Source: a virus
Virus record (IMG/VR): IMGVR_UViG_3300025818_000145
Location: 1-27,007 of that record
DNA: 27,007 nt
Direction: 5' to 3' (one strand)
Made by a program: the position numbers and the translations under genes. The notes under the pieces were generated by a model. That model was not told the DNA's origin, made no database searches, and saw nothing but the letters and a program-made list of their open reading frames with translations. Below are positions 4,200-27,007 of this stretch, piece after piece; the first letter of the stretch is position 1, and each line of letters opens with the position of its first letter.

Positions 4200-4200
4200 C

Positions 4201-4208
4201 ACTAAATA
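4201..4208 (+). promoter_or_regulatory. T4-like late promoter motif ACTAAATA
   Basis: A [A/C]TAAATA octamer lies in the gap after the kelch-like gene and ends 21 bases before the ATG at 4230, the same spacing as several other genes here. Confidence 0.5.
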
Positions 4209-4229
4209 ATCAAAACTACATTATTGTAT

Positions 4230-5867
4230 ATGAAGTCCGGAGCAACTGAAAGTTCTTTTTATTATCTTGCTCAACATTATACTTTTCCAGAGAATGTTGA
4301 TGTTAAGAGAACGACGAATGAAATTATAAAGTCCAATAAACAGTATAAAATTATCTGGGCTCATGATAATTGTGACCAGATGGGACACAAAGACCTTCCA
4401 CAATATGTGAATAAAATTGATGGCATTGTTTGTGTTTCGAACTGGGAACGAGAGCAGTATATAAAGTATAAAAGAGCACCAGCAGAGAAACTTCATGTAA
4501 TTCCAAACGGAGTTCATGATATGTTTCGTCCTTCTGGAAAACCAAAATCAAAAACTTGTATCTTTTTTTCTGCACCACATAAAGGAGTTGCACCTTTAGT
4601 TCCAATTTGGAAGGAAGTTATTAAACATCATCCAGATGCAAAACTCAAAGTGTTTTCTTCGATGTCTCTTTATGGTGATATTCAACCAGGAGAAGGTGAC
4701 AATGAAACAATCACAGGACCAAATGGATTAGAGCCATCACCATTTATTTCTGTTTATAAAGAACTTCAGAAACTTCCTGGTGTTGAGTATTCACCTTGTA
4801 TTGATCGTGAAGAGTTGCTACCTCATATTCAGGATGCAGCTTTTTATATTCATCCCAATGTTTGGGAGGAAACTTTTTGTGTATCATTAGCAGAAGCAAT
4901 GTCTTGTGGATGCTTTCCAATAACAACAGACATGGGAGCACTTCCAGAAACGGCAAATGGAATTGGAAAGTTTATTCCAATGTCAGGAAAAAACACACCA
5001 AGAGGATGGATACCTGACGAAACATTTCATAAAAACTTTGCCGAAGAAATGATTCGTGCTTTTCATTTCTTTGATGTTGCAAGAGATGAATATTATCAGG
5101 CATCAGAACTGATATCAAATTATGCAATAGAAAATTATAATTGGAAAAGAGTTGCTGGACTGTGGAAAAGTTATATTGAAAAGTATGATGATTATTATGA
5201 AAGATTTTCCGAAATCTTAATGACTCCATATGATCATATTGATTATCTCTATCAGATGAAGTATGAGCAATCAATAAATCCAAAAGTGATTTATGATATT
5301 GGTTCCAATTGTTTGCACTGGTCAAAGGTTGCACAAATGGTATGGAAAGATTCTAATATTTTTCATGTTGATGGATATGACCAATTCGAATCTCTCTATA
5401 AAAATAAGAAAGTTAATTATGCCATTGAGGTATTAAGTTCAGTAGATGATAAAGTTGTAACTTATTTTCAGAATGCCAGAAATCATGGAGGGTGTTCTTA
5501 TTATGAATTAAACTATAAGGATTTTCCTTATAATCAAAATGCATTTAGAAATCAACATTACTCTGAAGTTAAGAGAAGGACAAAGACTTTAGATACTCTA
5601 ATCAGAGAGAAAGGATGGCCAAAACCTGACTTGATTAAGATGGATGTTCAGGGATGTGAATTAGATATTATCAAAGGTGCTGTTAGTGCTATTAAATATT
5701 GTCCGAATATTATTCTTGAGTTGCAAAACAAAGAGTATATGAAAGGTGCTCCAATGAGAGATGAAGTCATTTCTTATATGAAATCGATTGGATATGTTCT
5801 GTCTTCACACTTTACACAAAACTCATCTGATGCTGATGGAGATTATCACTTCTCCAAACATAAATAA
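4230..5867 (+). CDS. Glycosyltransferase (GT4-like) fused to FkbM-family methyltransferase
   Basis: The ATG at 4230 gives 545 aa; an in-frame TTG lies two codons upstream. The N-terminal ~340 residues look like a GT-B retaining glycosyltransferase of family 4 type: 'DGIVCVSNWERE', 'VIPNGV', and the donor-binding E-x7-E motif in 'WEETFCVSLAEAMSCG' (E214 and E222), then 'TDMGALPE'. From about residue 350 the protein is an FkbM-type SAM-dependent methyltransferase with the SAM loop 'YDIGSN' (D356-N360) and the signature 'IKMDVQGCELDIIKGA' (D472-V-Q-G-C-E477). One polypeptide could therefore add a sugar and O-methylate it or a neighbouring group. The acceptor is unknown; fibre proteins or the host envelope are candidates given its place between two kelch-like genes. 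The N-terminal Rossmann half is short compared with bacterial GT4 enzymes. Confidence 0.82.
   Translation: MKSGATESSFYYLAQHYTFPENVDVKRTTNEIIKSNKQYKIIWAHDNCDQMGHKDLPQYVNKIDGIVCVSNWEREQYIKYKRAPAEKLHVIPNGVHDMFRPSGKPKSKTCIFFSAPHKGVAPLVPIWKEVIKHHPDAKLKVFSSMSLYGDIQPGEGDNETITGPNGLEPSPFISVYKELQKLPGVEYSPCIDREELLPHIQDAAFYIHPNVWEETFCVSLAEAMSCGCFPITTDMGALPETANGIGKFIPMSGKNTPRGWIPDETFHKNFAEEMIRAFHFFDVARDEYYQASELISNYAIENYNWKRVAGLWKSYIEKYDDYYERFSEILMTPYDHIDYLYQMKYEQSINPKVIYDIGSNCLHWSKVAQMVWKDSNIFHVDGYDQFESLYKNKKVNYAIEVLSSVDDKVVTYFQNARNHGGCSYYELNYKDFPYNQNAFRNQHYSEVKRRTKTLDTLIREKGWPKPDLIKMDVQGCELDIIKGAVSAIKYCPNIILELQNKEYMKGAPMRDEVISYMKSIGYVLSSHFTQNSSDADGDYHFSKHK
5859..5866 (+). promoter_or_regulatory. T4-like late promoter motif CATAAATA
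   Basis: This octamer overlaps the TAA stop of the GT-FkbM gene and lies 32 bases before the next ATG, which also has an AGGAG ribosome binding site at 5890-5894. Confidence 0.5.
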
Positions 5868-5898
5868 AAAAAATTGAACTGATATCTATAGGAGTTCT

Positions 5899-6744
5899 AT
5901 GTCAAATAATTATAAAGAAATTGCTCTTGCAAAATCCGATGAAGTTCTTGATGAGAGTAATGAATTTATGCTCAAGGTTCTTGCGGAGTGTGATCGTTGG
6001 AAAGAATCTGAAAGAGAACTTGCACAAGGAAGGTCAAACTTCCAGATTGAAAAGTTTATCGTTCATGATAATTTTACCATTCCATCAGCATTCAAAGCTG
6101 CAATTATCAACCGCAAGTCTGTGGCAGAGAACCTTCTAAATGGAATTCAGGATGCAAAGAAAATTGTAAGAGAGTTTCATTATAAGTGGGAAGGTAAAGA
6201 TAAAACTCAACCAATCTGGTGGAAGAATCGTGAAGGTGGTGAAGACCTTTGTTGGTATGATATTGATGAATTCAATTTTCATCGTTTTATTGATGGATTG
6301 AATGCTGGATTCAAAGCACAGACAACTGAACTTGAATTCTTTGATAAATTGATTGAAAGATTAATCGAATTGAACGGTGGTCATCCTCCAACAAAAGAAG
6401 AATTTGATGCCGATCAACCAGTTTATTGGGAAAGAAGATTTGCCAACCAGGCTCTTGATGAACTTCTTGCTGCACAAACAGGAGTCTCTGGTGGTAATAT
6501 TCGTTCTATGAGAAGAGCAACCGCACCAACAGTTCTTGAGGATGATGTGAATCGTATTAAGGAAGGCTATGCAGATCCAAGCAATTCAATCGCATTCCTT
6601 GAGAGTCTTCAGAGACATGTTGCTTCTGGTATTGAGGAAATTAGTGGACTATCAAATAATATTCTTCAAGGAAGAAAGGAGCAAACAAAACAATTAAGTG
6701 AGGAAAAAGTTTCGTTATTTAACGAAGAACTTCGCAAAAAATAA
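5899..6744 (+). CDS. Hypothetical helical protein between kelch-like genes
   Basis: I do not recognise a named domain in this 281-aa protein. It is rich in charged residues and predicted by eye to be mostly alpha-helical, with likely coiled-coil stretches at about 1-45 and 235-281. The middle is rich in tryptophan and aromatic residues ('PIWWKNREGGEDLCWYDIDEF'). No signal peptide or membrane segment is seen. It has one of the better Shine-Dalgarno sites in the region (AGGAG five bases before the ATG) and a late-promoter octamer upstream, so good late expression is likely. It ends 4 bases before the next kelch-like gene, which has no promoter motif of its own, so the two are probably co-transcribed. 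It could be a fibre-associated structural or chaperone protein; this is a guess from position only. Confidence 0.7.
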   Translation: MSNNYKEIALAKSDEVLDESNEFMLKVLAECDRWKESERELAQGRSNFQIEKFIVHDNFTIPSAFKAAIINRKSVAENLLNGIQDAKKIVREFHYKWEGKDKTQPIWWKNREGGEDLCWYDIDEFNFHRFIDGLNAGFKAQTTELEFFDKLIERLIELNGGHPPTKEEFDADQPVYWERRFANQALDELLAAQTGVSGGNIRSMRRATAPTVLEDDVNRIKEGYADPSNSIAFLESLQRHVASGIEEISGLSNNILQGRKEQTKQLSEEKVSLFNEELRKK

Positions 6745-6748
6745 GTAA

Positions 6749-8602
6749 ATGCCATCAGATGTTTTTGGGTTAGATGTAGTTTATGATAGACAGGTCGATT
6801 CTAATTGGCCAGAGTCTGCGAATTATGGTTACTTTGGTGGTGGTATTGCTCCACCTTTTGTTTGTACAATAGACCGCATAGATTTTTCTAGTGAAACTGT
6901 ATCGGAACCAAGTAGTGAATTAACTCAAGCAAGATATCTGTTAGCAGCAGTTTCTAATTCTAATTATGGTTACTTTGGTGGTGGTTATGCTCCACCACCT
7001 TTTGTTTGTACAATAGACCGATTAGATTTTTCTAGTGAGACCGTAACAGCACCAAGTAGTAATTTAACTCAAGCAAGAAACGGTTTAGCGGCAGTTTCTA
7101 ATTCTAATTATGGTTACTTTGCTGGTGGTTTATTTAATTCATCTTATCTTTGTACAATCGACCGTATAGATTTTTCTAGTGAAACTGTATCGGAACCAAG
7201 TAGTGAATTAACTCAAACAAGACAGGGTTTAGCAGCAGTCTCAAATTCTAATTATGGATACTTTGCTGGTGGTACAGCTCCACCTTTTGTTTGTGCCATT
7301 GACCGACTAGATTTTTCTAGTGAGACTGTAGCAGTGCCACCAGTAGGAGATCAATTAACTCAAGCAAGATATCAATTAACAGCAGTCTCAAATTCTAATT
7401 ATGGATACTTTGCTGGTGGTACAGCTCCACCTTTTGTTTGTACCATTGACCGACTAGATTTTTCTAATGAGACTGTATCGGAACCAAGTAGTGAATTAAC
7501 TCAAGCAAGATATATTTTAGCAGCAGTCTCAAATTCCAATTATGGTTACTTTGCTGGTGGTAGTGTTCCAGCTATTGTTTGTACCATTGACCGTTTAGAT
7601 TTTTCTAATGAAACTGTATCGGAACCAAGCAGCAACTTAACTCAAGCAAGAAGTTATTTAGCGGCAGTTTCTGATGGAAAATCAATAAACGCAAAAGGAG
7701 TTAAAAAAGGAACTGATGTTAATGGAGTTCCCATCTCTAGCACTTATGGATACTTTGGTGGTGGTGATGCTCCAGGTGTGGGTGTAGTATGCACCATTGA
7801 TCGTATTGATTTTTCAAATGAAACGACATCAGTTCCATCAGTTGATAATCAATTAAGTGCTGCGAGGGATGATTTAACGGCAGTTTCTAATTCTAATTAT
7901 GGATATTTTGCTGGTGGTTTTTCTCCACCTTTTATTTGTACTATTGACCGTTTAGATTTTTCTAACGAAATTACATCAATACCAAGTAGTCAATTGACTA
8001 GAAAAAGGGGAGATTTATCATCACTCTCTAATTCAAATTATGGTTATTTTGGTGGTGGTGCTAATCCACTCAGTACTTCTACTGTTGATCGTATAGATTT
8101 TTCAAATGAAACTGTATCTGAACCTAGTTCAGATTTAACTCAAGCACGGCATGAACTTGCGGCAGTATCTAGTTCTAGTTATGGATACTTTGCCGGAGGA
8201 AATCCCCTTCGTAGCACGATTGATAGATTAGATTTTTCTAATGAAACTATAATTGTCCCTCCAGTAGGAAATCATTTACCACAGGCTAGATCATTATTAT
8301 TTGGAGTTTCTGATTCTAATTATGGTTACTTTGCTGGTGGTTCTCCTCCAGCACATTCTACTGTTGACCGTTTGGATTTTTCTAATGAGACTACATCAGC
8401 TCCATCACCAGAATTAGGAACGACAAGATTAGGACTTTCTGGAGTTTCTAATTCTAATTATGGTTACTTTGCTGGTGGAGATAATCCTTCCATTGGCTTT
8501 CTCAGTAGTTTTGATCGCATAGAATTTTCTACTGAGACTATTTCAGCACCAGCAAATAATTTACCTCAACCAAGAGGTACTTTAGCAGGAGTCTCAAACT
8601 AA
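6749..8602 (+). CDS. Kelch-like 12-repeat fibre protein, paralog 2
   Basis: This 617-aa protein has the family N-terminus (MPSDVFGL...WPESA) and 12 very regular repeats of about 47 residues of the form 'NYGYFAGG-x5-8-CTIDRLDFSNETVS', then 'EPSSELTQAR', then 'LAAVSNS'. Repeats 1-6 and 7-12 are divided by a linker containing 'KGTDVNGVPISS' (about residues 319-331). The arrangement predicts two six-bladed kelch-type propellers. Repeats of the first half are close to identical, including silent sites. A 63-base segment at 7448-7510 is identical to segments in paralog 3. The cysteine before TIDR recurs in most units and could support disulphides or metal binding, but this cannot be told from sequence. 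The start has no clear ribosome binding site; coupling to the gene ending at 6744 is likely. Confidence 0.77.
   Translation: MPSDVFGLDVVYDRQVDSNWPESANYGYFGGGIAPPFVCTIDRIDFSSETVSEPSSELTQARYLLAAVSNSNYGYFGGGYAPPPFVCTIDRLDFSSETVTAPSSNLTQARNGLAAVSNSNYGYFAGGLFNSSYLCTIDRIDFSSETVSEPSSELTQTRQGLAAVSNSNYGYFAGGTAPPFVCAIDRLDFSSETVAVPPVGDQLTQARYQLTAVSNSNYGYFAGGTAPPFVCTIDRLDFSNETVSEPSSELTQARYILAAVSNSNYGYFAGGSVPAIVCTIDRLDFSNETVSEPSSNLTQARSYLAAVSDGKSINAKGVKKGTDVNGVPISSTYGYFGGGDAPGVGVVCTIDRIDFSNETTSVPSVDNQLSAARDDLTAVSNSNYGYFAGGFSPPFICTIDRLDFSNEITSIPSSQLTRKRGDLSSLSNSNYGYFGGGANPLSTSTVDRIDFSNETVSEPSSDLTQARHELAAVSSSSYGYFAGGNPLRSTIDRLDFSNETIIVPPVGNHLPQARSLLFGVSDSNYGYFAGGSPPAHSTVDRLDFSNETTSAPSPELGTTRLGLSGVSNSNYGYFAGGDNPSIGFLSSFDRIEFSTETISAPANNLPQPRGTLAGVSN
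6821..8602 (+). repeat. 12 kelch-like protein repeats (6+6), paralog 2
   Basis: Units average about 141 bases. Repeats 1-6 are strongly conserved in DNA, for example 'CTAATTATGG', 'CTGGTGGT' and 'ACTCAAGCAAGA' in nearly every unit. Repeats 7-12, after the linker at about 7700-7740, are more diverged. Confidence 0.82.
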
Positions 8603-8605
8603 ATA
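8598..8605 (+). promoter_or_regulatory. T4-like late promoter motif ACTAAATA
   Basis: The octamer is formed across the TAA stop (8600-8602) of paralog 2 and ends 21 bases before the paralog 3 ATG. An AAGGA ribosome-binding-like sequence lies at 8612-8616. Confidence 0.52.
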
Positions 8606-8626
8606 CAACATAAGGAAATAGATATC

Positions 8627-11197
8627 ATGCCATCAGGAGTATTTGGTTTAGAAAAAACATATAAGAAGCAAAGAAAAAAAGATTGGCCAGAGTCTGCGAA
8701 TTACGGTTATTCTGTGGGAACCACAAATCCTACACTTGCACCACCAACTGGAGGAGCTTGTATTATTGATAGACTGGATCTTTCTACAGAAGTTGTTTCT
8801 AGTCCTGGATCAATTGCGAATTATACTTATGCCATGTTTGACATGTCATCCCTAATTGGTAGGAATTATGGATATCTTGTCGGTGGAAAATCTCCATATA
8901 GTGCTGGTGTTCATTGTACAATAGTAAGACTTGATTTTTCAAATGAAACTTTTGAGGATATTGGTACTCATTTAAATTCATCTAAACAATGGACTTCTAG
9001 TGTCAACAGTCCGGAATATGGATACGTTTGTAGTGGTAGAGTTCCAACTCCAGCAGACATATCTACCATAGATAGATTGGATTTTTCTAGTGAAACTTTA
9101 ACGTCTTCACTATCCAATCTTACGACATCTAGAACAAATGCTGGGTCAACTTATTCGACACAATATGGATATATTGCTGCTGGTTTTGATGGCACATCTA
9201 ATGTTGCTACAATAGATCGATTTGATTTTACCAACGAATCATCATCTGTGATTTCTGGAACATTAAATAATCCAGGCAGAACCGGATTATCTCAACATAT
9301 ACAAAGTCAGAGTTATGGATATGTTGCTAGTGGCAGTTCATCTTATCCCACCGTAGTGGATAAAATTGATTTTTCAAATGATAGTTTTTCAAGAACAACA
9401 GATATAACTGTAGGAAGAGGTTCTGCTGGAGGAGCATCTACTTTAAATTATGGATACTTATTGGGAGGTATGTTTCCATATCGTTCTGATATGGATAGAA
9501 TAGACTTTTCAACGGACAGTGTATCAACACCTTCTTCAACACAAACTTTGAATAATAGGGGAGGTTCTACAGTAATTGCGGGTGGAATAAACAAGAGTGC
9601 AAAATCAAGAAGATATTTTCTTGATGTTGATGCTGTCCCTATAGGAAATGCTACTGGTTACTTTGCTGGTGGTGGTGCTCCGGCTGTTGTTTGTACAATC
9701 GACCGTATAGATTTTTCTAATGAGACTGTATCGGAACCAAGTAGTGAATTAACTCAAGCAAGATATCAGTTAGCAGCAGTCTCAAATTCGAATTATGGGT
9801 ACTTTGCTGGCGGTTTTGCTCCACCTCAAGTTTGTACAATAGACCGATTAGATTTTTCTAATGAGACTGTATCAGCACCAGGTAATGATTTAACTCAAGC
9901 AAGACAGTATTTAGCATCAGTCTCTAATTCTAATTATGGTTATTTTGGTGGTGGTGCTACTACTCCATCTTATGTTTGTACTATTGACCGATTAGATTTT
10001 TCTAATGAAACTGTATCAGAACCAAGTAGCAATTTAACTCAAGCAAGAAATCAATTAGCAGCAGTCTCAAATTCGAATTATGGTTACTTTGCTGGTGGTG
10101 GTCCAGGTAATGTTTGTACTATTGACCGACTAGATTTTTCTAATGAGACTGTATCGGAACCAAGTAGTGAATTAACTCAAGCAAGAACTGCTTTAGCAGC
10201 AGTCTCTAATTCTAATTATGGATACTTTGCTGGTGGGTGGGCCCCACCTCAACTTTGTACAATAGACCGACTAGATTTTTCTAATGAGACTGTATCGGAA
10301 CCAAGTAGTGAATTAACTCAAGCAAGAAATGGTTCAGCAGCAGTCTCTAATTCTAATTATGGATACTTTGCTGGTGGTGCTACTCCATCTTATGTTTGTA
10401 CTATTGACCGACTAGATTTTTCTAATGAGACTGTATCGGAACCAAGTAGTGAATTAACTCAAACAAGATATACTGCAGCAGGAGTCTCTGGTGGATGGGC
10501 TACTGCACCATCAATCGGACCAAGATCTGGACCAAGAACATCTGTCAATCCTGGTGGTGAAGGTGGTGGAGGTGGTGAAGGTGGTGGAGGTGCATCATCA
10601 CAAATGACATTTAAGTATTATGGTTATGGATCAAATACGGGAACTTTATCCGTTCACTGGGCACCAGGACCACCCACTTCTAATACAATCAGTGCCGCAC
10701 TTCCATTTACTGCCGATGGTTCAACAGTAACATCAATCTCCGGACAAACGCATCCAGGACCAGGACAAACTTGGAAATCTGCTACTGTAGATTTAAGTCC
10801 ATTATCACCGAGCACCGGACACTTTGTATTTAAATATCGTACTGGAACAAGTTTTAGAGGAGACTTCCAACTTGATGATATGGAATTCACACACTCTGGA
10901 GGAACTGATGATTTAGATCCGGATTTGAAGAGAACTGCATCAACCGATAATTGGCAAAAATGGAATGCTGGCCCACCAGCAACATACAATACATCTTTCT
11001 TTTCTAATGTGACAGTTTCAACTTCTGCTCCTGGTGGATGGAACTATGATGCCGGAGGAACACCATCTGGTTCTACTGGAACGACATCAGACTCTGATGG
11101 GAGTCCAACTGGATATTACATCTATGCAGAAACTTCTTCACCAAACTATCCACAGAAATATATGTGGTTGAGAACTGCAACTCCGGTTACGATTTAG
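8627..11197 (+). CDS. Kelch-like 12-repeat fibre protein with MAM-like C-terminus, paralog 3
   Basis: This 856-aa protein shares the family N-terminus (MPSGVFGL...WPESA). Repeats 1-6 (about residues 25-345) are diverged. Repeats 7-12 (about 345-622) are almost identical to each other and to the first half of paralog 2, which suggests a chimera formed by recombination. A Gly-rich linker (about 640-657, GGEGGGGGEGGGG) leads to a C-terminal domain. Residues ~659-755 resemble the second half of a MAM-type jelly-roll ('GTLSVHW', 'TWKSATVDLSPL', 'GDFQLDDMEF'). Residues ~770-856 resemble a first half ('SPTGYYIYAETSS', 'YMWLRTATPV'). This would make it the largest adhesin-like protein in the window, with a distal carbohydrate- or protein-binding domain. 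The function is inferred. A ribosome-binding-like AAGGA precedes the ATG. Confidence 0.77.
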   Translation: MPSGVFGLEKTYKKQRKKDWPESANYGYSVGTTNPTLAPPTGGACIIDRLDLSTEVVSSPGSIANYTYAMFDMSSLIGRNYGYLVGGKSPYSAGVHCTIVRLDFSNETFEDIGTHLNSSKQWTSSVNSPEYGYVCSGRVPTPADISTIDRLDFSSETLTSSLSNLTTSRTNAGSTYSTQYGYIAAGFDGTSNVATIDRFDFTNESSSVISGTLNNPGRTGLSQHIQSQSYGYVASGSSSYPTVVDKIDFSNDSFSRTTDITVGRGSAGGASTLNYGYLLGGMFPYRSDMDRIDFSTDSVSTPSSTQTLNNRGGSTVIAGGINKSAKSRRYFLDVDAVPIGNATGYFAGGGAPAVVCTIDRIDFSNETVSEPSSELTQARYQLAAVSNSNYGYFAGGFAPPQVCTIDRLDFSNETVSAPGNDLTQARQYLASVSNSNYGYFGGGATTPSYVCTIDRLDFSNETVSEPSSNLTQARNQLAAVSNSNYGYFAGGGPGNVCTIDRLDFSNETVSEPSSELTQARTALAAVSNSNYGYFAGGWAPPQLCTIDRLDFSNETVSEPSSELTQARNGSAAVSNSNYGYFAGGATPSYVCTIDRLDFSNETVSEPSSELTQTRYTAAGVSGGWATAPSIGPRSGPRTSVNPGGEGGGGGEGGGGASSQMTFKYYGYGSNTGTLSVHWAPGPPTSNTISAALPFTADGSTVTSISGQTHPGPGQTWKSATVDLSPLSPSTGHFVFKYRTGTSFRGDFQLDDMEFTHSGGTDDLDPDLKRTASTDNWQKWNAGPPATYNTSFFSNVTVSTSAPGGWNYDAGGTPSGSTGTTSDSDGSPTGYYIYAETSSPNYPQKYMWLRTATPVTI
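8699..10491 (+). repeat. 12 kelch-like protein repeats (6+6), paralog 3
   Basis: Units 1-6 are diverged and units 7-12 (from about 9650) are near-identical. A 63-base stretch beginning GACCGACTAG is identical at 10124-10186 and 10265-10327, and at 7448-7510 in paralog 2. A further copy near 10406-10468 differs at one base. Confidence 0.82.
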
Positions 11198-14904: not shown

Positions 14905-16491
14905 ATGAGTTCTCTTCAAGAAAAATGGTCAGATAAATATAAAAAGAGTATTGACTGCAATAACCCAAAGGGTTTTAGTCAGAGAGCTCACTGCCAGGGT
15001 CGCAAAAAGAAAATGAGTGAAGAAAAAAAAGATCACGAATATTCTATGGCTAGGTCAGAATTAAAGACCGTAGCAAGTGCTGTTAAACGTCTTCAAAAGA
15101 AGATGGGTAAAAAAGGTGAGGGTAATTTACAAGCCTGGGTTCAATCTAAAATTACTAAAGCAGCAGATTACATTGATACTGCAGCAGATTATGTTACTAA
15201 CGAAGAAACGAAAAGTGGTGATAGTTCTTTGCGTGACTGGTTTAGCAAGAGTCGCTCTTCTGATGGCACCCCTGGTTGGGTTCAACTGGGCGGCAAGTAT
15301 GCAGGAAAACCCTGTGCAAAGCAACCAGGTCAAACAACCAAACCCAAGTGCGGTTCTTCAAAAATGAAGCGTAATCTTTCTAAAGATGAGGAAGAAGCAG
15401 CTTTTAGACGCAAGAATCGAAAAGATCCAAATCCAGATAGAAAAGGGAAGGCAATTAACGTGAAAACAGAAGAAGCAATGATCGAAGCAGCAGGTGAAAA
15501 AGATGCTTGTTATCATAAAGTAAAATCTCGTTATAAGGTTTGGCCTTCTGCATATGCTTCTGGGGCTTTAGTTAAGTGCCGTAAAAAAGGTGCTGCTAAT
15601 TGGGGAAATAAAACTAAAAAAGAAGAAATTGACCTCGGTGAAAAGTGTTGGCCTGGTTATGAGAAAAAAGGTATGAAAAAAATGTTTGGAAAAAAATATC
15701 CAAATTGTGTCAAAAAAGAAGGATATGAATTTTCTAATTGGAGAGACGATTTCAAGGCAACTGAATATGAGTTTATTGACCTCATCAAACCAGAACCTTG
15801 GAAATCAGTAAAAGAAGAATGTGGTGTTCAAAGATATTGTCCAAAATGCAAAAAGAATGAATTAAGAACCGAATGTAAGTATGGTGGTCACTATTGGGAT
15901 ATGTTCTCAAAACCAGCATCTTTAGCACCAGAAACTCCAGAGGATTTTGTACCATCAGAATCATCTGATGGTGGTGGTGACATTGGTGAAGCAGTAAGAG
16001 TTCCACAAAGAACTGGAAATATAATTGTGGTAACTTTGAGTTGGAGAGGAAAGTTTTACATGATTAAGTTGTTCTTCCCACAAATTACAAAACCAAGTAG
16101 AAAAGAAGTTCAAGACCAAATTGAAAAAGTCTATCCCGGTTCAAAAGTAAATACCTATTATGTAACTGATTACAAACCAGGGGAGCAATTGCTTTATGTG
16201 TCTGAAGAAGAGGTTGATGAAGATTGGCAATCTGTAAATCGCAAAGACAAAACCGATGGTTTAAGTCAAAAAGCAGTTGATGCCTATCGCAGAGAGAATC
16301 CAGGTTCAAAACTGAAAACTGCAGTTACTAAAAAACCATCAAAATTGAAAGCAGGTTCTAAAGATGCAAAGCGTCGCAAGTCGTTCTGCTCAAGAATGAG
16401 TGGTATGAAGAAGCGTCTCACTTCTGCTAAAACTGCTAGAGACCCAGATTCCAGAATCAATAAAGCCCTCCGTCGTTGGAACTGTAACTAA
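14905..16491 (+). CDS. Lys/Cys-rich multi-module virion-associated protein
   Basis: This 528-aa, strongly basic protein looks like short modules strung together, each seen in other marine phage or giant-virus proteins. They are: an N-terminal 'KYKKSIDCNNPKGFSQRAHC' block (about 11-31); a helical segment (45-100); a 'WFSKSRSSDGTPGWVQLGG' block with paired cysteines (about 112-150, DUF5872-like from memory); a 'RYKVWPSAYASGALVKC' block (about 209-235); a 'CWPGYEKKGMKKMFGKKYPNC' type block split by lysines; a C-x2-C...C cluster near 312-325; a 'WRGKFY...YPGS' domain (about 375-435) also found in the next gene; and a C-terminal 'KRRKSFCSRMSGMKKR...RRWNC' block (489-528). The charge suggests DNA contact or packaging inside the capsid. 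This is inference; no enzyme motif is seen. The start is ATG 14905, after AAAGG. Confidence 0.7.
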   Translation: MSSLQEKWSDKYKKSIDCNNPKGFSQRAHCQGRKKKMSEEKKDHEYSMARSELKTVASAVKRLQKKMGKKGEGNLQAWVQSKITKAADYIDTAADYVTNEETKSGDSSLRDWFSKSRSSDGTPGWVQLGGKYAGKPCAKQPGQTTKPKCGSSKMKRNLSKDEEEAAFRRKNRKDPNPDRKGKAINVKTEEAMIEAAGEKDACYHKVKSRYKVWPSAYASGALVKCRKKGAANWGNKTKKEEIDLGEKCWPGYEKKGMKKMFGKKYPNCVKKEGYEFSNWRDDFKATEYEFIDLIKPEPWKSVKEECGVQRYCPKCKKNELRTECKYGGHYWDMFSKPASLAPETPEDFVPSESSDGGGDIGEAVRVPQRTGNIIVVTLSWRGKFYMIKLFFPQITKPSRKEVQDQIEKVYPGSKVNTYYVTDYKPGEQLLYVSEEEVDEDWQSVNRKDKTDGLSQKAVDAYRRENPGSKLKTAVTKKPSKLKAGSKDAKRRKSFCSRMSGMKKRLTSAKTARDPDSRINKALRRWNCN

Positions 16492-16799
16492 TGAAAAGTT
16501 TTAAACAATTTTTAACCGAAAGCATCACCATCAATGGTGATTTCAATGGAACTCTCAATGTAGGAGGTTCTCAACCAGAACAGGCACAAGAGTCATTCTT
16601 TGCCGATGTTGTCTGGGAAGGTAAGTTATACCGTCTTGAAGTAGAAGGTAAAATGCTTTCCAAAAATGAATTGGCAGAGCAGATTCAAGGAGAATATCCA
16701 GGTGCAATTGTTCATCAAATTTATCCAGGAAATTCTCCTTCTTCAAAAATCAAAAACGCACAAAGATATCAACCAGAAAGATTAAGTTGGAGTGACTAA
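16491..16799 (+). CDS. Small protein with T4 internal-protein-like capsid-targeting N-terminus
   Basis: This 102-aa protein begins 'MKSFKQFLTE|S'. This parallels the capsid-targeting peptide of T4 internal proteins and Alt (MKTYQEFIAE, cleaved after Glu10 by gp21), including the [LI]-x-E cleavage rule. Predicted processing after E10 would leave a mature ~92-residue protein starting 'SITINGDFNG'. Residues 36-75 ('FFADVVWEGKLYRLEV', 'LAEQIQGEYPGA') resemble residues ~375-413 of the preceding 528-aa protein, so the two share a small domain. It overlaps its neighbours on both sides through TAATG junctions, indicating tight translational coupling. Predicted fate: enters the prohead core, is trimmed, stays in the capsid or is injected. 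The domain's function is unknown. Confidence 0.75.
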   Translation: MKSFKQFLTESITINGDFNGTLNVGGSQPEQAQESFFADVVWEGKLYRLEVEGKMLSKNELAEQIQGEYPGAIVHQIYPGNSPSSKIKNAQRYQPERLSWSD

Positions 16800-18361
16800 T
16801 GGCTCAGTGGAATAAAACTACACAAGATTACCTCAATCAAGAGAGAAGTCTATTTGAGGTTTACATGTGTGCCGACAGATACGGCAACATTGATGGGTGC
16901 AATGGAACTGCGAGTGGTAGTGGTGCATTTGGAGAACAAATTGTATCTCAAATCACCCCAGTCCTTCAACTTGATGGTCTGTATGGTTTAAACTCAGATA
17001 GATTTGAACTCTACTCATTTGGTACTGGTAGCACTAGTGATGCTAATAATTTGATGACTACATCAACAGGAACTGGTGCTTATGGTTATGGAGTTGTTCG
17101 TTCTAAAAGATCTGTAAGATATCGTCCAGGACAAGGTGCTCTCGCAAGATTCACAGCACAGTTTTCTGGTATTGCAACAGGATATACACAAAGAGCAGGA
17201 TTCTTCACACAAGAGCAAGCACTTCAAGTTGGATACAGCACTGAAGGAAGGTTTGGTATTCTTCGTGAGAATGGTGGTAAAGCTCACATTCATAGATTTA
17301 CTATCACAACACCTTCAAGTGGCACAGAGAATATAACAGTCACTCTTGCTGGTGTCGCATCCACAGTTACTATTGGATCAGGAACAACAACACAAAACGC
17401 AACTGGTATTGGAACTCATACTTATGCTGGTTGGATTGCCGACTATAAGAATGGTTATATTGATTTCTTATCCACAAGCGTCGGTCCAAAAACAGGCACA
17501 TTCTCTATTGTAAGTAATGGTGACCTGGTAGCTACATCAACAACTTCTCAAACAGGTGTAAATCATACAAGCAACTGGACATATCAAGAGGACTGGAACT
17601 TTGATACGATGACTGGTGTTGGTGGCACCACCAATCCATCAGGAGTTACATTAGATCCAACCAAACTGAATGTATACCAAATCAACTTCCGTTGGTTGGG
17701 TGCTGGTGAGATGAGATTTGCTATTGAAAATCCCACAACGGGAGATATGATGCCCGTTCATCATATTCACTATACAAACAGGAATAATACTGTTCATTTA
17801 GATAATCCATCACTCAAGATTGGATATGTGGCTGCCAATCTGGATGGTAATACTGGTGCTGGTGTAACAGTCTCTGGCGCATCTATGATGGGTGCGATTG
17901 AAGGTGTTATTAATACCACAACCCTTCCAATCGGTGCCTTTAGAACAAAGACTGGTGGAATGAATAGTACTGGCACAAAATTCCACCTGATTACCATTAA
18001 GGGCGGTATGATTGTCAATAACAAAATTAATACCAGAGAACTTATAGTAAAGAAAATTAGTGCTCTAACAACATCGGCAGGAACAGCACCTTGTTTTATC
18101 TATCTGTATATTGATCCAATAACAGCAGATCCTTTAGATTTCACACCTCTTGGAAATGCTTCTTCATATTCAACAACTGATACAACAATCACTGGTGGAG
18201 ATCCAGCAGCAGTTTTTTGTGTTACATCGGGTGCTCCAGAAACAATTGATCTTGATGAGTTGAGAATTGTTTTACCACCACAAAGACTATTCACGCTAGC
18301 AATTTCTTCCAGTGCTGTTCTACAAAATGCAGATGCTGCAATAACATTTGTTGAGGATTAA
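16799..18361 (+). CDS. Putative beta-rich virion structural protein
   Basis: This 520-aa protein is poor in charged residues and rich in Gly, Thr, Ser and Asn, typical of beta-structured virion components. Recognisable stretches such as 'WNKTTQDYLNQERSLFEVYMCADRYGNI', 'VRSKRSVRYRPGQGALARFTAQF' and 'NVYQINFRWLGAGEMRFAIENP' recall conserved structural proteins of marine T4-like phages, from memory, but I cannot assign a T4 gene number. 'YRPGQGALARFTAQFS' with the later 'W-x-GAGEMRF' suggests a jelly-roll lectin-like core of ~300 residues, followed by a second beta domain. It starts within the TAATG junction of the capsid-targeted protein and lies directly upstream of the terminase, where T4 has gp16. 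It does not look like gp16. Confidence 0.65.
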   Translation: MAQWNKTTQDYLNQERSLFEVYMCADRYGNIDGCNGTASGSGAFGEQIVSQITPVLQLDGLYGLNSDRFELYSFGTGSTSDANNLMTTSTGTGAYGYGVVRSKRSVRYRPGQGALARFTAQFSGIATGYTQRAGFFTQEQALQVGYSTEGRFGILRENGGKAHIHRFTITTPSSGTENITVTLAGVASTVTIGSGTTTQNATGIGTHTYAGWIADYKNGYIDFLSTSVGPKTGTFSIVSNGDLVATSTTSQTGVNHTSNWTYQEDWNFDTMTGVGGTTNPSGVTLDPTKLNVYQINFRWLGAGEMRFAIENPTTGDMMPVHHIHYTNRNNTVHLDNPSLKIGYVAANLDGNTGAGVTVSGASMMGAIEGVINTTTLPIGAFRTKTGGMNSTGTKFHLITIKGGMIVNNKINTRELIVKKISALTTSAGTAPCFIYLYIDPITADPLDFTPLGNASSYSTTDTTITGGDPAAVFCVTSGAPETIDLDELRIVLPPQRLFTLAISSSAVLQNADAAITFVED

Positions 18362-18374
18362 AAGGAGTTTTGTT

Positions 18375-19253
18375 ATGAGTGACGTATATCTTGGCAATCC
18401 ATTATTAAAAAAAGCAAATACTGCGATTGAATTTACTCAAGAACAGATTGAGGAGTTTATTAAATGTCAGAGTGACCCAGTATATTTTGCAAAAAATTAT
18501 GTGAAGATTGTGACTCTTGATAAAGGATTACAACCTTTTGAGTTATACCCATTTCAAGAAAAGTTAGTTAATAACTTTCATAATAATAGATTTAATATCT
18601 GCAAGATGCCACGGCAGACAGGTAAATCAACAACTGTGGTTTCTTTTCTTTTACACTATGCAGTATTTAATGATAATGTCAATATAGGCATTCTAGCAAA
18701 CAAAGCTGCAACCGCAAGAGAACTTCTTGATAGGTTACAAACTGCATACGAGAACTTACCAAAGTGGATGCAGCAAGGTATCATAGCATGGAATAAAGGT
18801 AGTTTGGAGTTAGAAAATGGCAGTAAGATATTGGCAGCTTCTACATCTGCAAGTGCTGTCCGAGGCATGTCGTTCAATATCCTCTTTCTCGACGAATTCG
18901 CCTTCGTCCCTAATCACATCGCTGACTCCTTCTTTGCATCTGTTTATCCTACTATTACTTCTGGTAAAAGCACAAAAGTCATCATAGTTTCAACGCCACA
19001 TGGTATGAATCATTTCTACCGTATGTGGCACGATGCGGAAAAAGGTAAGAACGAATATATTCCCACAGATGTTCATTGGTCAGAAGTTCCAGGTAGAGAT
19101 TCTAAATGGAAAGAACAGACTATTGCAAACACATCAGAGCAGCAGTTTAAAGTTGAGTTTGAATGTTTGGATGGAAATACATCGATTGAAATTTTAGATG
19201 AGAATAATACCATTCAAAAAATTTCAATGGAAAACTTATATAAACGGTTGTGA
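18375..19253 (+). CDS. gp17 (N-half): Terminase large subunit, N-terminal ATPase half fused to split N-intein
   Basis: The chosen ATG at 18375 follows an AAAGGAG ribosome binding site (18361-18367) and gives 292 aa; an in-frame TTG upstream is less likely. Residues 1-263 are the ATPase half of a T4 gp17-type packaging motor: Walker A 'PRQTGKST' (79-86), Walker B 'NILFLDEFAF' with D173 and E174, and the coupling motif 'IIVSTPHG' (203-210). After 'FKVEFE' the protein switches at C264 to 'CLDGNTSIEI' and ends '..MENLYKRL', a 29-residue N-terminal intein fragment (block A). It then stops, so the nuclease domain is missing here and is supplied by the gene at 19844. Trans-splicing would join E263 to C104 of that protein to give 547 aa, a normal length for marine T4-like gp17. 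ATP-driven packaging of DNA into the prohead through the portal (gene at 24208) is the expected role. Confidence 0.9.
   Translation: MSDVYLGNPLLKKANTAIEFTQEQIEEFIKCQSDPVYFAKNYVKIVTLDKGLQPFELYPFQEKLVNNFHNNRFNICKMPRQTGKSTTVVSFLLHYAVFNDNVNIGILANKAATARELLDRLQTAYENLPKWMQQGIIAWNKGSLELENGSKILAASTSASAVRGMSFNILFLDEFAFVPNHIADSFFASVYPTITSGKSTKVIIVSTPHGMNHFYRMWHDAEKGKNEYIPTDVHWSEVPGRDSKWKEQTIANTSEQQFKVEFECLDGNTSIEILDENNTIQKISMENLYKRL
19164..19250 (+). other. Split intein, N-terminal fragment (29 aa)
   Basis: Begins at the nucleophile Cys (codon 19164-19166) and carries the block-A pattern C-x-D-G-x-T. It ends before block B, much earlier than conventional split inteins such as DnaE or gp41-1, whose N-fragments are about 90-120 residues. 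The 'LYKRL' ending resembles the N-fragment of the AceL-TerL intein as I recall it. Confidence 0.85.
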
Positions 19254-19264
19254 GTTTTTTGGAT

Positions 19265-19272
19265 TATAAATA
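19265..19272 (+). promoter_or_regulatory. Perfect T4 late consensus TATAAATA before the homing endonuclease
   Basis: All eight positions match the T4 late consensus, but the motif ends only 9 bases before the ATG at 19282. A transcript from it would be nearly leaderless, unlike the usual ~20-base spacing here. Confidence 0.4.
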
Positions 19273-19281
19273 ATTAAAAAA

Positions 19282-19851
19282 ATGTATTATATTTACTTTC
19301 TTAAAGACTTGGATGGAAAAGTCAAATATGTTGGACAGACTCAAAATTTAGATTCTAGAAGAAGAGAACATAAAAGAAATAAACCACCACATAAATTTGA
19401 AATAAGTGAGCAGATAGATATTTCAGAAAAAGCAAAAGAAGCAGAAATTTTTCATATAGAAAAATTTGATACTTTTAAAAATGGATGGAATAAATCTACT
19501 GGTGGAGAAGGATTTGATGACTACGAAAGAAAAGGAATTGGTGGAGCAAAAAAGGGAACTATTCCTTGGAATAAAGGAGTCAAAAATTGTTTCTCTGAAG
19601 AGACTATAGAAAAAATGAGCAATTCTAGAAAAGGTAGAGTTTTTAGTAGAAAAATAAATGACGATCAAATAAGAGAGATAAGGAAACTATATAATGAAAA
19701 ACCAGAATTACAAAATGTCGGTGCAATTATGAAAAATGGTAAAAGATTATCATATATTCAGGCATTTTGTAAGGAATATGCAAAAGATTATAATTTAACT
19801 CCACAAGGGATAAAAAGAATTATTTTAAAGGAATGCTGGACAAATGTTTAA
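19282..19851 (+). CDS. Free-standing GIY-YIG homing endonuclease with NUMOD3-like motif
   Basis: This 189-aa protein starts with a GIY-YIG nuclease domain: 'YYIYFLKD' (2-9) supplies the GIY strand, 'KYVGQT' (15-20) the YIG strand, R26-R28/H30 the conserved Arg/His region, E53 or nearby the metal-binding Glu, and 'GWNKSTGGEG' (68-77) the N-x-x-GG motif. A NUMOD3-like DNA-binding motif follows ('FSEETIEKMSNSRKGR', about 104-119). A helix-turn-helix-like C-terminus comes last ('YIQAFCKEYAKDYNLTPQGIKRI'). It should cut intein-free terL alleles and drive copying of the insertion. It has no in-frame connection to either intein fragment. Its end overlaps the start of the downstream terminase half by 8 bases, so that half may depend on translation of this gene. 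The base composition is visibly more AT-rich than that of the flanking terminase. Confidence 0.88.
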   Translation: MYYIYFLKDLDGKVKYVGQTQNLDSRRREHKRNKPPHKFEISEQIDISEKAKEAEIFHIEKFDTFKNGWNKSTGGEGFDDYERKGIGGAKKGTIPWNKGVKNCFSEETIEKMSNSRKGRVFSRKINDDQIREIRKLYNEKPELQNVGAIMKNGKRLSYIQAFCKEYAKDYNLTPQGIKRIILKECWTNV

Positions 19852-20152
19852 ACTTAATAAAAATATTAAAGTAAAAACTCCTAGTGGATTTAAATATTTT
19901 TCTGGAATTCAAAAAGTTTACAAACCATTTTATCATTGGATAATATTTGATGATGGAACAGAAATAAAATGCTCTGACAATCATTCTTTTGGGAAAGAAC
20001 AAATAAAAGCATCAATGATTAAAGTTGATGATTTTTTTCAGGGGAAAAAAGTAGTTTATAATGAAATAGTAGAAGAAGAAATATACCTTTATGACTTACT
20101 TGATGTTGGTGAAGATAATCTTTATTTTTCAAATGGAATAATATCTCACAAT
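19844..20152 (+). other. Split intein, C-terminal fragment (103 aa)
   Basis: Carries the rest of the Hint fold: 'GIQKV' and 'WIIFDDGTEIKCSDNHSF' (block B, S44-x2-H47), then 'IYLYDLLDVGEDNLYFSNG' (block F), and 'IISHN|C' (block G, H102-N103, +1 Cys104). With the 29-residue N-fragment it makes a complete mini-intein of about 132 residues without an internal endonuclease. Confidence 0.88.
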
Positions 20153-21007
20153 TGTGAGTTTCTAGGGTCTGTTGATACACTTATTGCTCCTAGCAAATTG
20201 AGAAGTTTAATTTATGATCATCCTAAAGTAAGAAATAAAGGTCTTGATGTTTATGAAGACCCCAAAAATGACCACGACTATTTGATGACAGTTGATGTTG
20301 CTAGAGGAGTGAGTGAGGATTACTCTGCATTCGTAGTTACTGACATAACAGAATTTCCACATAAAGTAGTTGCAAAGTATAGAAATAATGAAATCAAACC
20401 AATGCTATTTCCGAATATCATATATGAAGTAGCAAAAAATTATAATGGAGCCTATATTCTTTGTGAGGTAAATGATATTGGAGATCAGGTTGCAAGTATT
20501 CTTCAATATGATTTAGAGTATCAAAATCTTCTCATGTGCTCAATGAGAGGAAGAGCTGGTCAAATTGTTGGTCAAGGATTTTCTGGAAAGAAAACTCAAC
20601 TGGGAGTTAAGATGTCCAAGACCGTAAAGAAGGTTGGGTCATTAAACCTCAAGACAATGATTGAGGAGGATAAATTAATCTTCAATGACTATGAAATTAT
20701 TTCGGAACTTACAACTTTTATCTCAAAACATAACTCATTTGAGGCTGAAGAAGGGTGTAATGATGACCTTGCAATGTGTCTTGTTATCTATGCATGGTTG
20801 GTAGCACAAGACTACTTTAAGGAACTTACTGATCAAGATGTTCGTAAGAGATTATATGAGGAGCAGAGAAATCAAATTGAACAAGACATGGCACCATTTG
20901 GGTTTATATCTGATGGTCTAGATTCAAATTCATTTGTGGATGCTGAAGGTGATCGATGGTACACTGATGAATATGGTGATCGTTCATATATGTGGGATTA
21001 CCTTTAA
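19844..21007 (+). CDS. gp17 (C-half): Split C-intein fused to terminase large subunit nuclease half
   Basis: This 387-aa protein begins with 103 residues of C-intein ending H102-N103. It continues at C104 with 'CEFLGSVDTLIAPSKLR', the natural continuation of the terminase. The RNase H-like nuclease domain is complete: D151 in 'MTVDVARGVSEDYSAF', E208 in 'ILCEVNDIGDQ', and D307/D308 in 'GCNDDLAMCLVIYAW' correspond to the three acidic residues of T4 gp17. These cut the concatemer during headful packaging. The ATG at 19844 lies inside the 3' end of the endonuclease gene, with AAAGGA at 19827-19832, so coupled translation is likely. The 284-residue C-extein plus the 263-residue N-extein reconstitute the motor. 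The stop overlaps the next gene (TAATG at 21005-21009). Confidence 0.9.
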   Translation: MFKLNKNIKVKTPSGFKYFSGIQKVYKPFYHWIIFDDGTEIKCSDNHSFGKEQIKASMIKVDDFFQGKKVVYNEIVEEEIYLYDLLDVGEDNLYFSNGIISHNCEFLGSVDTLIAPSKLRSLIYDHPKVRNKGLDVYEDPKNDHDYLMTVDVARGVSEDYSAFVVTDITEFPHKVVAKYRNNEIKPMLFPNIIYEVAKNYNGAYILCEVNDIGDQVASILQYDLEYQNLLMCSMRGRAGQIVGQGFSGKKTQLGVKMSKTVKKVGSLNLKTMIEEDKLIFNDYEIISELTTFISKHNSFEAEEGCNDDLAMCLVIYAWLVAQDYFKELTDQDVRKRLYEEQRNQIEQDMAPFGFISDGLDSNSFVDAEGDRWYTDEYGDRSYMWDYL

Positions 21008-26372: not shown

Positions 26373-27007
26373 ATGAAACTAATCAGAGAAGAAATCGAAA
26401 AGGTTGAAGTTGTTACTGAGAGTGTGAATGGTAAAAAGACCTTGTTTATTCAAGGACCCTTTTTACAGACCGAAAAAGAAAATAGAAATCACAGAGTTTA
26501 TCGTAGACCTGTGATGGAACGTGAGGTAAAAAGATATACCGAATCTTATATTAATAAAGGTCGTGCTCTTGGTGAATTAGGCCATCCCGATGGTCCAACT
26601 ATCAATCTTGATCGGGTTTCTCATAAAATTGTTTCTCTTGAGCAAAAGGGAAATGATTTTCATGGGAAAGCACAAATCCTTTCAACACCAATGGGAAAGA
26701 TTGCAGAATCTCTTCTTAAAGAAGGTGTGACACTTGGAGTTTCTTCTCGTGGAATTGGTTCTTTAAAAATGTCCAAAGAAGGATGGTCTGAAGTTGGTGA
26801 AGATTTTATGTTAGCAACTGCTGCTGATATTGTTGCCGATCCTTCTGCACCCGATGCATTTGTTTCGGGAATTATGGAAGGAAAAGAGTGGGTTTGGGAA
26901 GGTGGAATTCTTCGTGAACAACTCGCAGAAAAAACTTACAAGAGAATTAATACACTTGTAGACCAGAAAATACTTGAGGAACATAAATTGGATTTGTTTA
27001 ACAATTT
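26373..27007 (+). CDS. gp21: Prohead core protease gp21 (3' end outside window)
   Basis: The frame is open from ATG 26373 to the window edge (211 residues visible). It matches the T4 gp21 / herpesvirus-assemblin-like serine protease family: 'GELGHPDGPTINLDRVSH' contains the catalytic His (H71), 'LKEGVTLGVSSRGIGSL' the Ser (S124 or S125), and 'AADIVADPSAPDAFV' a likely third residue (D152 or D156). T4 gp21 is 212 aa, so this version is at least as long and still open. It matures the prohead by cutting core, internal and capsid proteins at [LI]-x-E sites. The protein at 16491 carries such a site after Glu10. The gene starts 6 bases after the preceding stop. Confidence 0.93.
   Translation, partial: MKLIREEIEKVEVVTESVNGKKTLFIQGPFLQTEKENRNHRVYRRPVMEREVKRYTESYINKGRALGELGHPDGPTINLDRVSHKIVSLEQKGNDFHGKAQILSTPMGKIAESLLKEGVTLGVSSRGIGSLKMSKEGWSEVGEDFMLATAADIVADPSAPDAFVSGIMEGKEWVWEGGILREQLAEKTYKRINTLVDQKILEEHKLDLFNN

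Follow-up and report, generated by a model that had tools for sequence, protein, structure and literature searches.

A probable T4 internal-protein-type capsid-targeting leader on a conserved cyanophage protein and on a varied set of marine T4-like phage proteins

The window analyzed here is the whole of a viral contig of 27,007 bases (IMG/VR record IMGVR_UViG_3300025818_000145), from an ocean virus infecting cyanobacteria. On its plus strand, the ORF of interest occupies positions 16491-16799, from ATG to TAA, and encodes 102 aa with the N-terminus MKSFKQFLTESITING; the product translated from these positions opens with MKSFKQFLTESITINGDFNG. TAATG overlaps join it to both neighbors, between the upstream stop and its own start and between its own stop and the downstream start. 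The upstream gene (14905..16491, plus strand) encodes 528 aa matching phrog_727 and DUF6321, and its counterpart in S-SCSM1, SSCSM1_29, carries a virion protein label. The downstream gene (16799..18361, plus strand), whose start overlaps the ORF stop, encodes a phrog_1645 virion structural protein and is followed by genes for a gp17-type terminase, gp18/gp19-type tail proteins (names assigned from position and sequence), gp20 (Portal_T4) and gp21 (Peptidase_S77). The gp21-type prohead protease gene (26373..27005, plus strand; PF03420, E 9e-32) is truncated by the window end; its presence in the same window, stated in the original prediction, is thereby borne out. The context of the ORF is conserved, with an upstream homologue in 78/88 loci and a homologue of the downstream structural gene in 64/73.

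Some other features of the window deserve mention. The gp17-type terminase gene is broken across 18348-21007: its first ORF closes with what looks like the start of an intein (CLDGNTSIEIL), the ORF at 19282-19851 encodes a freestanding endonuclease-like protein (MYYIYFLKDLDGKVKYVGQT, GIY-YIG-like by eye), and the ORF at 19844-21007 begins with an intein-like C-part that has SHNC at its end. We take this region to resemble the 'fractured gene' arrangement of split inteins. Positions 2277-11197 encode three proteins of repeats like SNYGYFAGGxxPPxVCTIDRLDFSNETVSEPSSELTQAR, which are beta-propeller-like, and a collagen-like repeat protein lies at 2-994.

The first ten residues of the ORF product, MKSFKQFLTE (16491..16520, plus strand), form a leader of the T4 capsid-targeting type, as judged from comparison with T4, a permutation control and family conservation. 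Both T4 ipII and ipIII begin with ATGAAAACATATCAAGAATTTATTGCCGAA, that is MKTYQEFIAE, as verified on the T4 record. Compared with IPII/IPIII, the ORF leader is identical at M1, K2, F7 and E10, with conservative pairs at S/T3, F/Y4, Q/E6 and L/I8. According to a T4 review, packaging needs no more than these ten residues, of which 4 and 7 serve targeting and 8 and 10 serve processing, and gp21 cleaves after [LI]-x-E (PMC9026906). MKSFKQFLTE agrees with the T4 leader at all of these constrained positions (hydrophobic 4 and 7, [LI] at 8 and E at 10). The original prediction had called a 102-aa ORF with this leader, aligned it position by position with MKTYQEFIAE and read the [LI]-x-E rule in it; the ORF is real, the alignment holds wherever T4 is constrained, and the rule is kept by L8 and E10. 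When all six frames of the window were searched with a broad regular expression, requiring at least 30 residues to the stop, the ORF start was the single match. The leader was also considered as a general feature of the upstream gene, and this was ruled out, as 6/106 distinct upstream N-termini match, some of them possibly fragments or members of different families.

T4 itself has a further gene of this kind. Gene 61.1 (54 aa; NC_000866 18966-19130, locus L320) begins MKTFKEFIKE, a perfect leader of the capsid-targeting type, and its body (GTTSGAVVNKGPEQIPKKK), Gly-rich with Lys at the end, resembles small leader-tagged marine proteins. Judged from its sequence, its product is possibly a T4 internal protein that has been overlooked.

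The ORF belongs to phrog_1742 (E 9e-41), a PHROG without assigned function, and has no Pfam match at E <= 1. With tblastn, homologues were found in 135 records of phages, each named as a cyanophage; alignments start at residue 1 in 60/60 among the matches listed, and the close orthologues in S-CAM9 and S-SKS1 share about 80% identity with the ORF product. A homologue is absent from the complete genomes of Syn9, S-PM2, S-SM1, P-SSM2, HTVC008M and S-CREM2, which suggests that the protein is not universally needed. F4, F7, E10 and Ser11 are present in 48/48 unique homologues from one subset of homologue loci, in which the start filter required F/Y/L at 4 and F/Y/L/I at 7 and left E10 and S11 unselected. 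By region, pN/pS is lowest in the leader (0.215), compared with 0.349 in the spacer, 0.313 in the body and 0.538 in the tail, in a homologue set partly found via leader patterns, where the invariance of F4 and F7 is partly selected. In one homologue (L147), eight inserted residues follow MKNFKEF and bring with them a further [LI]-x-E|S site; this homologue keeps both the targeting end and the LSE|S site directly before the body.

Past the leader, the [LI]-x-E|S rule and AF2 pLDDT predict a new N-terminus at Ser11 and a flexible spacer, SITINGDFNGTLNVGG... (residues 11-33; 16521..16589, plus strand). This is followed in the AF2 model by a folded beta-beta-alpha-beta domain, that of phrog_1742 (residues 34-80; 16590..16730, plus strand), and then by a C-terminal tail with an RY-P--L-W motif conserved in the homologue alignment (residues 81-102; 16731..16796, plus strand). 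The model is modest (mean pLDDT 72.6, pTM 0.47), with residues 10-31 disordered (pLDDT <50) and a confident domain at 34-80. The upstream gene holds a second beta-beta-alpha-beta copy (residues 359-422; 15979..16170, plus strand), and the two domains are paralogous (hhalign prob 94, E 1.4e-7). Foldseek likewise places the ORF domain in DUF6321 proteins, including an S-SCSM1 virion protein.

The leader pattern recurs far beyond chance. In ten complete genomes of T4-like phages, [FYL]4-[FY]7-[LIVMF]8-E10 is found at 21 ORF starts, whereas the mean is 0.47 matches over 5040 rearrangements of these residue classes, and no other rearrangement reaches 21; the runners-up (17, 15 and 12) also occupy positions 4, 7, 8 and 10, with classes that overlap. 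Three of the 21 belong to T4 (ipII, ipIII and gene 61.1), and among the ten genomes S-PM2 and HTVC008M have no match at ORF starts. A DNA pattern for MK-x-F-x-x-F-[LIMF etc.]-x-E gave 16 matches forward and 0 reversed in 12 phage records. Of 12 such matches in named records, 11 coincide exactly with the start of an annotated gene, and the remaining one starts an unannotated 111-aa ORF in S-SKS1.

A search for the leader on other marine phage proteins, proposed along with the original prediction, found it on many. Two scans of viral contigs were used, each returning at least 120 stretches, the first fixing MK-x-F-[KEQ]-[EQ]-F-x-x-E and the second just MKTFK[EQ]F followed by a hydrophobic residue, with Glu10 not required. 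Together they gave at least 220 leader places, at least 211 of which encode 45 residues or more; grouped by the similarity of their bodies, these proteins form at least 85 clusters, including a chained one of 95 (the count covers the fetched loci of both scans, an earlier step having covered 80/120 scan-1 loci). Among the scan-2 matches listed, Glu occupies position 10 in 94/118, with position 9 spread over many residues. Proteins resembling SAM lyases are the commonest family (23/118 among these matches listed); with this family removed, Glu10 is found in 72/95 of the scan-2 matches listed, and S/A/G follows it in 39/72, against 22.6% in bodies. Among the matches listed, Glu10 is the majority residue in 47/65 clusters, and 30/95 leaders outside the SAM-lyase family depart from the strict [LI] rule by having Met or Phe at position 8. 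The preference for E10 and a small next residue is the trace expected of selection for cleavage by gp21. A gp21-type protease is encoded in 9/15 large leader-bearing contigs; the S77 protease was rejected as a strict companion of the leader, since the other six are without it, possibly as fragments.

The bodies behind the leader are diverse. Sixty leader proteins, hand-chosen and mostly longer cluster members, were compared with Pfam and PADLOC. Pfam matches included cytidylyltransferases (3), an ART-PolyVal ADP-ribosyltransferase, S-adenosylmethionine lyase, zeta toxin, glucosaminidase, a lytic transglycosylase domain, and methyltransferase and acetyltransferase domains, several of them below the curated cut-off (for example, the last two). 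PADLOC matched only one type II restriction enzyme among these 60. On one contig of 14,224 bases (L192), four different genes with leaders lie within 3 kb of each other, a possible cargo cassette. Several small proteins that are leader-tagged or virion-detected (L097, L107, L134, L301, S-CREM2 gp160 and SSCSM1_97) contain a motif like (A)PxNxVGTGxxxGxxPxAGxDP, which resembles the cyanophage major capsid protein just past its predicted cut (S-CREM2 gp145, APTQAVGADGFTGAAAPGGPNAGFDP). Another post-leader module, like LGLxxDGHGGWYDxxGEFVAKT, is common to several virion enzymes, its bearers being S-CREM2 gp12 and gp14, SSCSM1_91, PSSM2_194 and the unannotated S-SKS1 ORF at 73234 (minus strand). 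In S-CREM2 gp12, annotated as Cas9-like, a leader-like LRFASFMAEA lies at residues 17-26 and not at the start.

Association of the leader with virions was drawn from published data for S-CREM2, S-SCSM1, S-SZBM1 and S-SM1. In S-CREM2, 52 of the 219 CDS are virion-detected (Table 3, PMC10665884), and the leader regular expression marks six: gp6 (SAM lyase), gp13, gp14 (kinase), gp136, gp154 (cytidylyltransferase) and gp175. All but gp175 are virion-detected, that is 5/6 versus 47/213 of the others (Fisher p=0.003), with an expression widened after the N-termini of gp136 and gp154 had been seen; its strict T4-like form gives 4/4. Setting structural proteins aside lowers p to 0.0003, with the 32 predicted structural ORFs of the paper taken as removed. 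The gp6 protein has a SAM hydrolase annotation and a match to the SAM lyase family as well. In S-SCSM1, one of two leader CDS is labeled a virion protein (48 labels were counted in the record, 45 by the paper), and in S-SZBM1 1/4 regex-positive CDS is in the virion list of 30. Pooled over these three proteomes, 7/12 leader CDS are detected against 2.3 expected (p=0.003). S-CREM2 gp175 and some of the S-SZBM1 matches look like chance matches. The cytidylyltransferase/NMNAT is both leader-tagged and virion-detected in 4/4 cases (S-CREM2, S-SCSM1, S-SZBM1 and, as T4-GC190, S-SM1), with a nine-residue leader, MRFRQFIIE|A, in S-SZBM1.

By its pattern, its spread, its preference for Glu10 and a small next residue, and its association with virions, identification of the leader as a T4-type capsid-targeting sequence is supported. 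Given 21 matches against 0.47, the 85 body clusters and the enrichment among S-CREM2 virion proteins, cyanophages very probably use such a sequence, and the ORF protein very probably carries one. For the S-CREM2 proteome, its authors left undecided whether enzymes in virions were packaged or contaminants, and the leader is unmentioned in the available part of their paper (PMC10665884). A literature search for leader strings, in a corpus lacking bioRxiv and holding few subscription journals, gave no match, and one combining capsid targeting with cyanophages gave, in the parts available, only the T4 review, with one cyanophage mention (PMC9026906).

For the ORF protein itself, virion data come from two orthologues, SSCSM1_30 (leader MKTFKQFMSE|S, whose Met at 8 departs from the strict [LI] rule) and SSZBM1_191 (MKSFKSFLSE|S). 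Neither is among the reported virion proteins of S-SCSM1 and S-SZBM1 (0/2), nor is the adjoining, leader-tagged SSZBM1_192 in the S-SZBM1 list; their neighbors SSCSM1_29, SSCSM1_31 and SSZBM1_190 are reported in virions. An abundant 87-aa virion protein of S-SZBM1 was considered as the orthologue and rejected, as it is SSZBM1_195. S-CREM1 also encodes an orthologue, and the record stretch examined carries no virion labels; the available part of the S-CREM1 report gives only 14 proteins detected in virions. The original claim that the ORF product is a packaged protein is predicted from its T4-type leader and not supported for this protein itself: orthologues are missing from 2/2 virion proteomes, which by the refuting condition of the original prediction, absence from virions, weighs against packaging, but weakly because a mature protein of 92 aa is easily missed. 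The protein would be either scarce, small and missed, or active in the prohead and then lost from it.

Altogether, we put at roughly 70% the probability that the ORF leader is a T4 internal-protein-type capsid-targeting sequence and that the protein is loaded into the prohead and clipped after Glu10. The protein would be made with the head genes; hydrophobic residues 4 and 7 of the leader would bind the prohead core, and gp21 would cut after Glu10 ([LI]-x-E|S), for which, as for packaging, the odds appear good. The 92-residue product would begin at Ser11, with the flexible spacer preceding the small beta-beta-alpha-beta domain, and the mature domain may act inside the prohead or head, possibly together with the large upstream protein. 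Such a role is the likeliest one, because the domain is duplicated in a neighboring protein whose S-SCSM1 counterpart is virion-detected. Delivery to the host is possible and less supported.

A neighboring reading is that the protein, brought into the prohead core by its leader, is an assembly factor there, like T4 gp67/gp68, that is mostly lost on maturation and not delivered. Conservation in a head-gene block and in 135 cyanophage records, unlike the varied cargo bearing the leader elsewhere, points in this direction, as do the domain shared with the large neighboring protein and the absence of orthologues from 2/2 virion proteomes. However, the protein has a single good cleavage site, since at its other [LI]-x-E (LAE|Q, residues 61-63) the next residue is not a small one, and six complete genomes do without a homologue, so that we hold this reading to be tentative, at somewhat less than even odds. 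That the leader has some other role, in membrane or partner binding or as a translation start context, with its T4 likeness convergent or incidental, would be consistent with a short, amphipathic N-terminus, with cleavage of cyanophage leaders being predicted only, and with the chance-like matches in S-CREM2 (gp175) and S-SZBM1. This appears improbable against the selection of Glu10 and a small next residue far above background, the position-permutation control, the enrichment among virion proteins and the gp21-type protease in 9/15 large leader-bearing contigs.

The original prediction also saw in the ORF product a possible anti-defense or takeover factor. This part is unsupported, and conservation in the head-gene block fits assembly at least as well; delivery or anti-defense by this protein is a guess. 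In its most specific form, the mature domain would be ejected with the DNA as a virion-delivered host factor and bind, for example, RNA polymerase like T7 Gp2. Other leader-tagged proteins do resemble injected effectors, and T7 Gp2 provides the top three chains in Foldseek against PDB (4lk0_M prob 0.99, TMt 0.69) and ranks first in VIA-align (Z 4.6, rmsd 2.4, 49 aligned), with phage RNAP inhibitors in BFVD at E 0.03-0.04. However, no PDB structure matches the ORF domain at E <= 0.001, phi29 p6 is tied in VIA-align (Z 4.5), and the next-closest structures, ribosomal proteins and phycobilisome linkers, indicate a common small fold. Searched against PDB sequences, the ORF profile gave no Gp2 chain at E <= 10 and 7 weak matches, the first ones designed-protein repeats and none useful. 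With no Pfam match either and orthologues undetected in 2/2 virion proteomes, a delivered host factor is hardly likely, and a function was not adopted from a Gp2-like fold that is weak and tied with unrelated small folds.

The main result is the tagged repertoire across marine T4-like phages rather than the single ORF. It is fairly probable that in these phages the leader serves as a general address code for capsid cargo, readable from the sequence by itself, sharing its loading mechanism with T4 and tagging an exchangeable arsenal for the next host, of which the ORF would be a conserved member. This arsenal would comprise SAM lyases acting against restriction, ADP-ribosyltransferases, zeta-toxin-like kinases, cytidylyltransferases, cell-wall enzymes and a large remainder. 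The idea of anti-defense or takeover finds its evidence in these other leader-tagged proteins (SAM lyase, ADP-ribosyltransferase and zeta-toxin-like), and an anti-defense role is plausible for the SAM lyases. If the address code is real, the capsid cargo of marine T4-like phages, including likely anti-restriction enzymes, would be predictable from ten residues, and orphan proteins such as the ORF protein and T4 gene 61.1 would gain a location. The leader also offers a direct test of whether the S-CREM2 enzymes are packaged or contaminants, as cargo should begin just past Glu10.

Compared with known systems, the ORF protein shares with T7 Gp2 a similar size and, in the predicted model, the beta-beta-alpha-beta arrangement, but the two have no sequence match and the structural similarity is no better than to phi29 p6. 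To our knowledge, T7 Gp2 carries no capsid leader. S-CREM2 gp6, gp14 and gp154, S-SM1 T4-GC190 and the S-SCSM1 NMNAT bear the same type of leader as the ORF; these enzymes are virion-detected, whereas the ORF has no enzyme match and its orthologues are undetected. The ORF protein differs from T4 IPII/IPIII in having Phe instead of Tyr at position 4, in a body from a beta-beta-alpha-beta family of cyanophages that is paralogous to part of a neighboring virion protein, and in being conserved in the head-gene block, with packaging and cleavage predicted only. With T4 it shares the ten-residue N-terminal leader, with K2, an aromatic residue at 4, F7, [LI]8, E10 and a small residue just past the predicted cut, and in both cases the phage that encodes the leader protein also encodes an S77 prohead protease.
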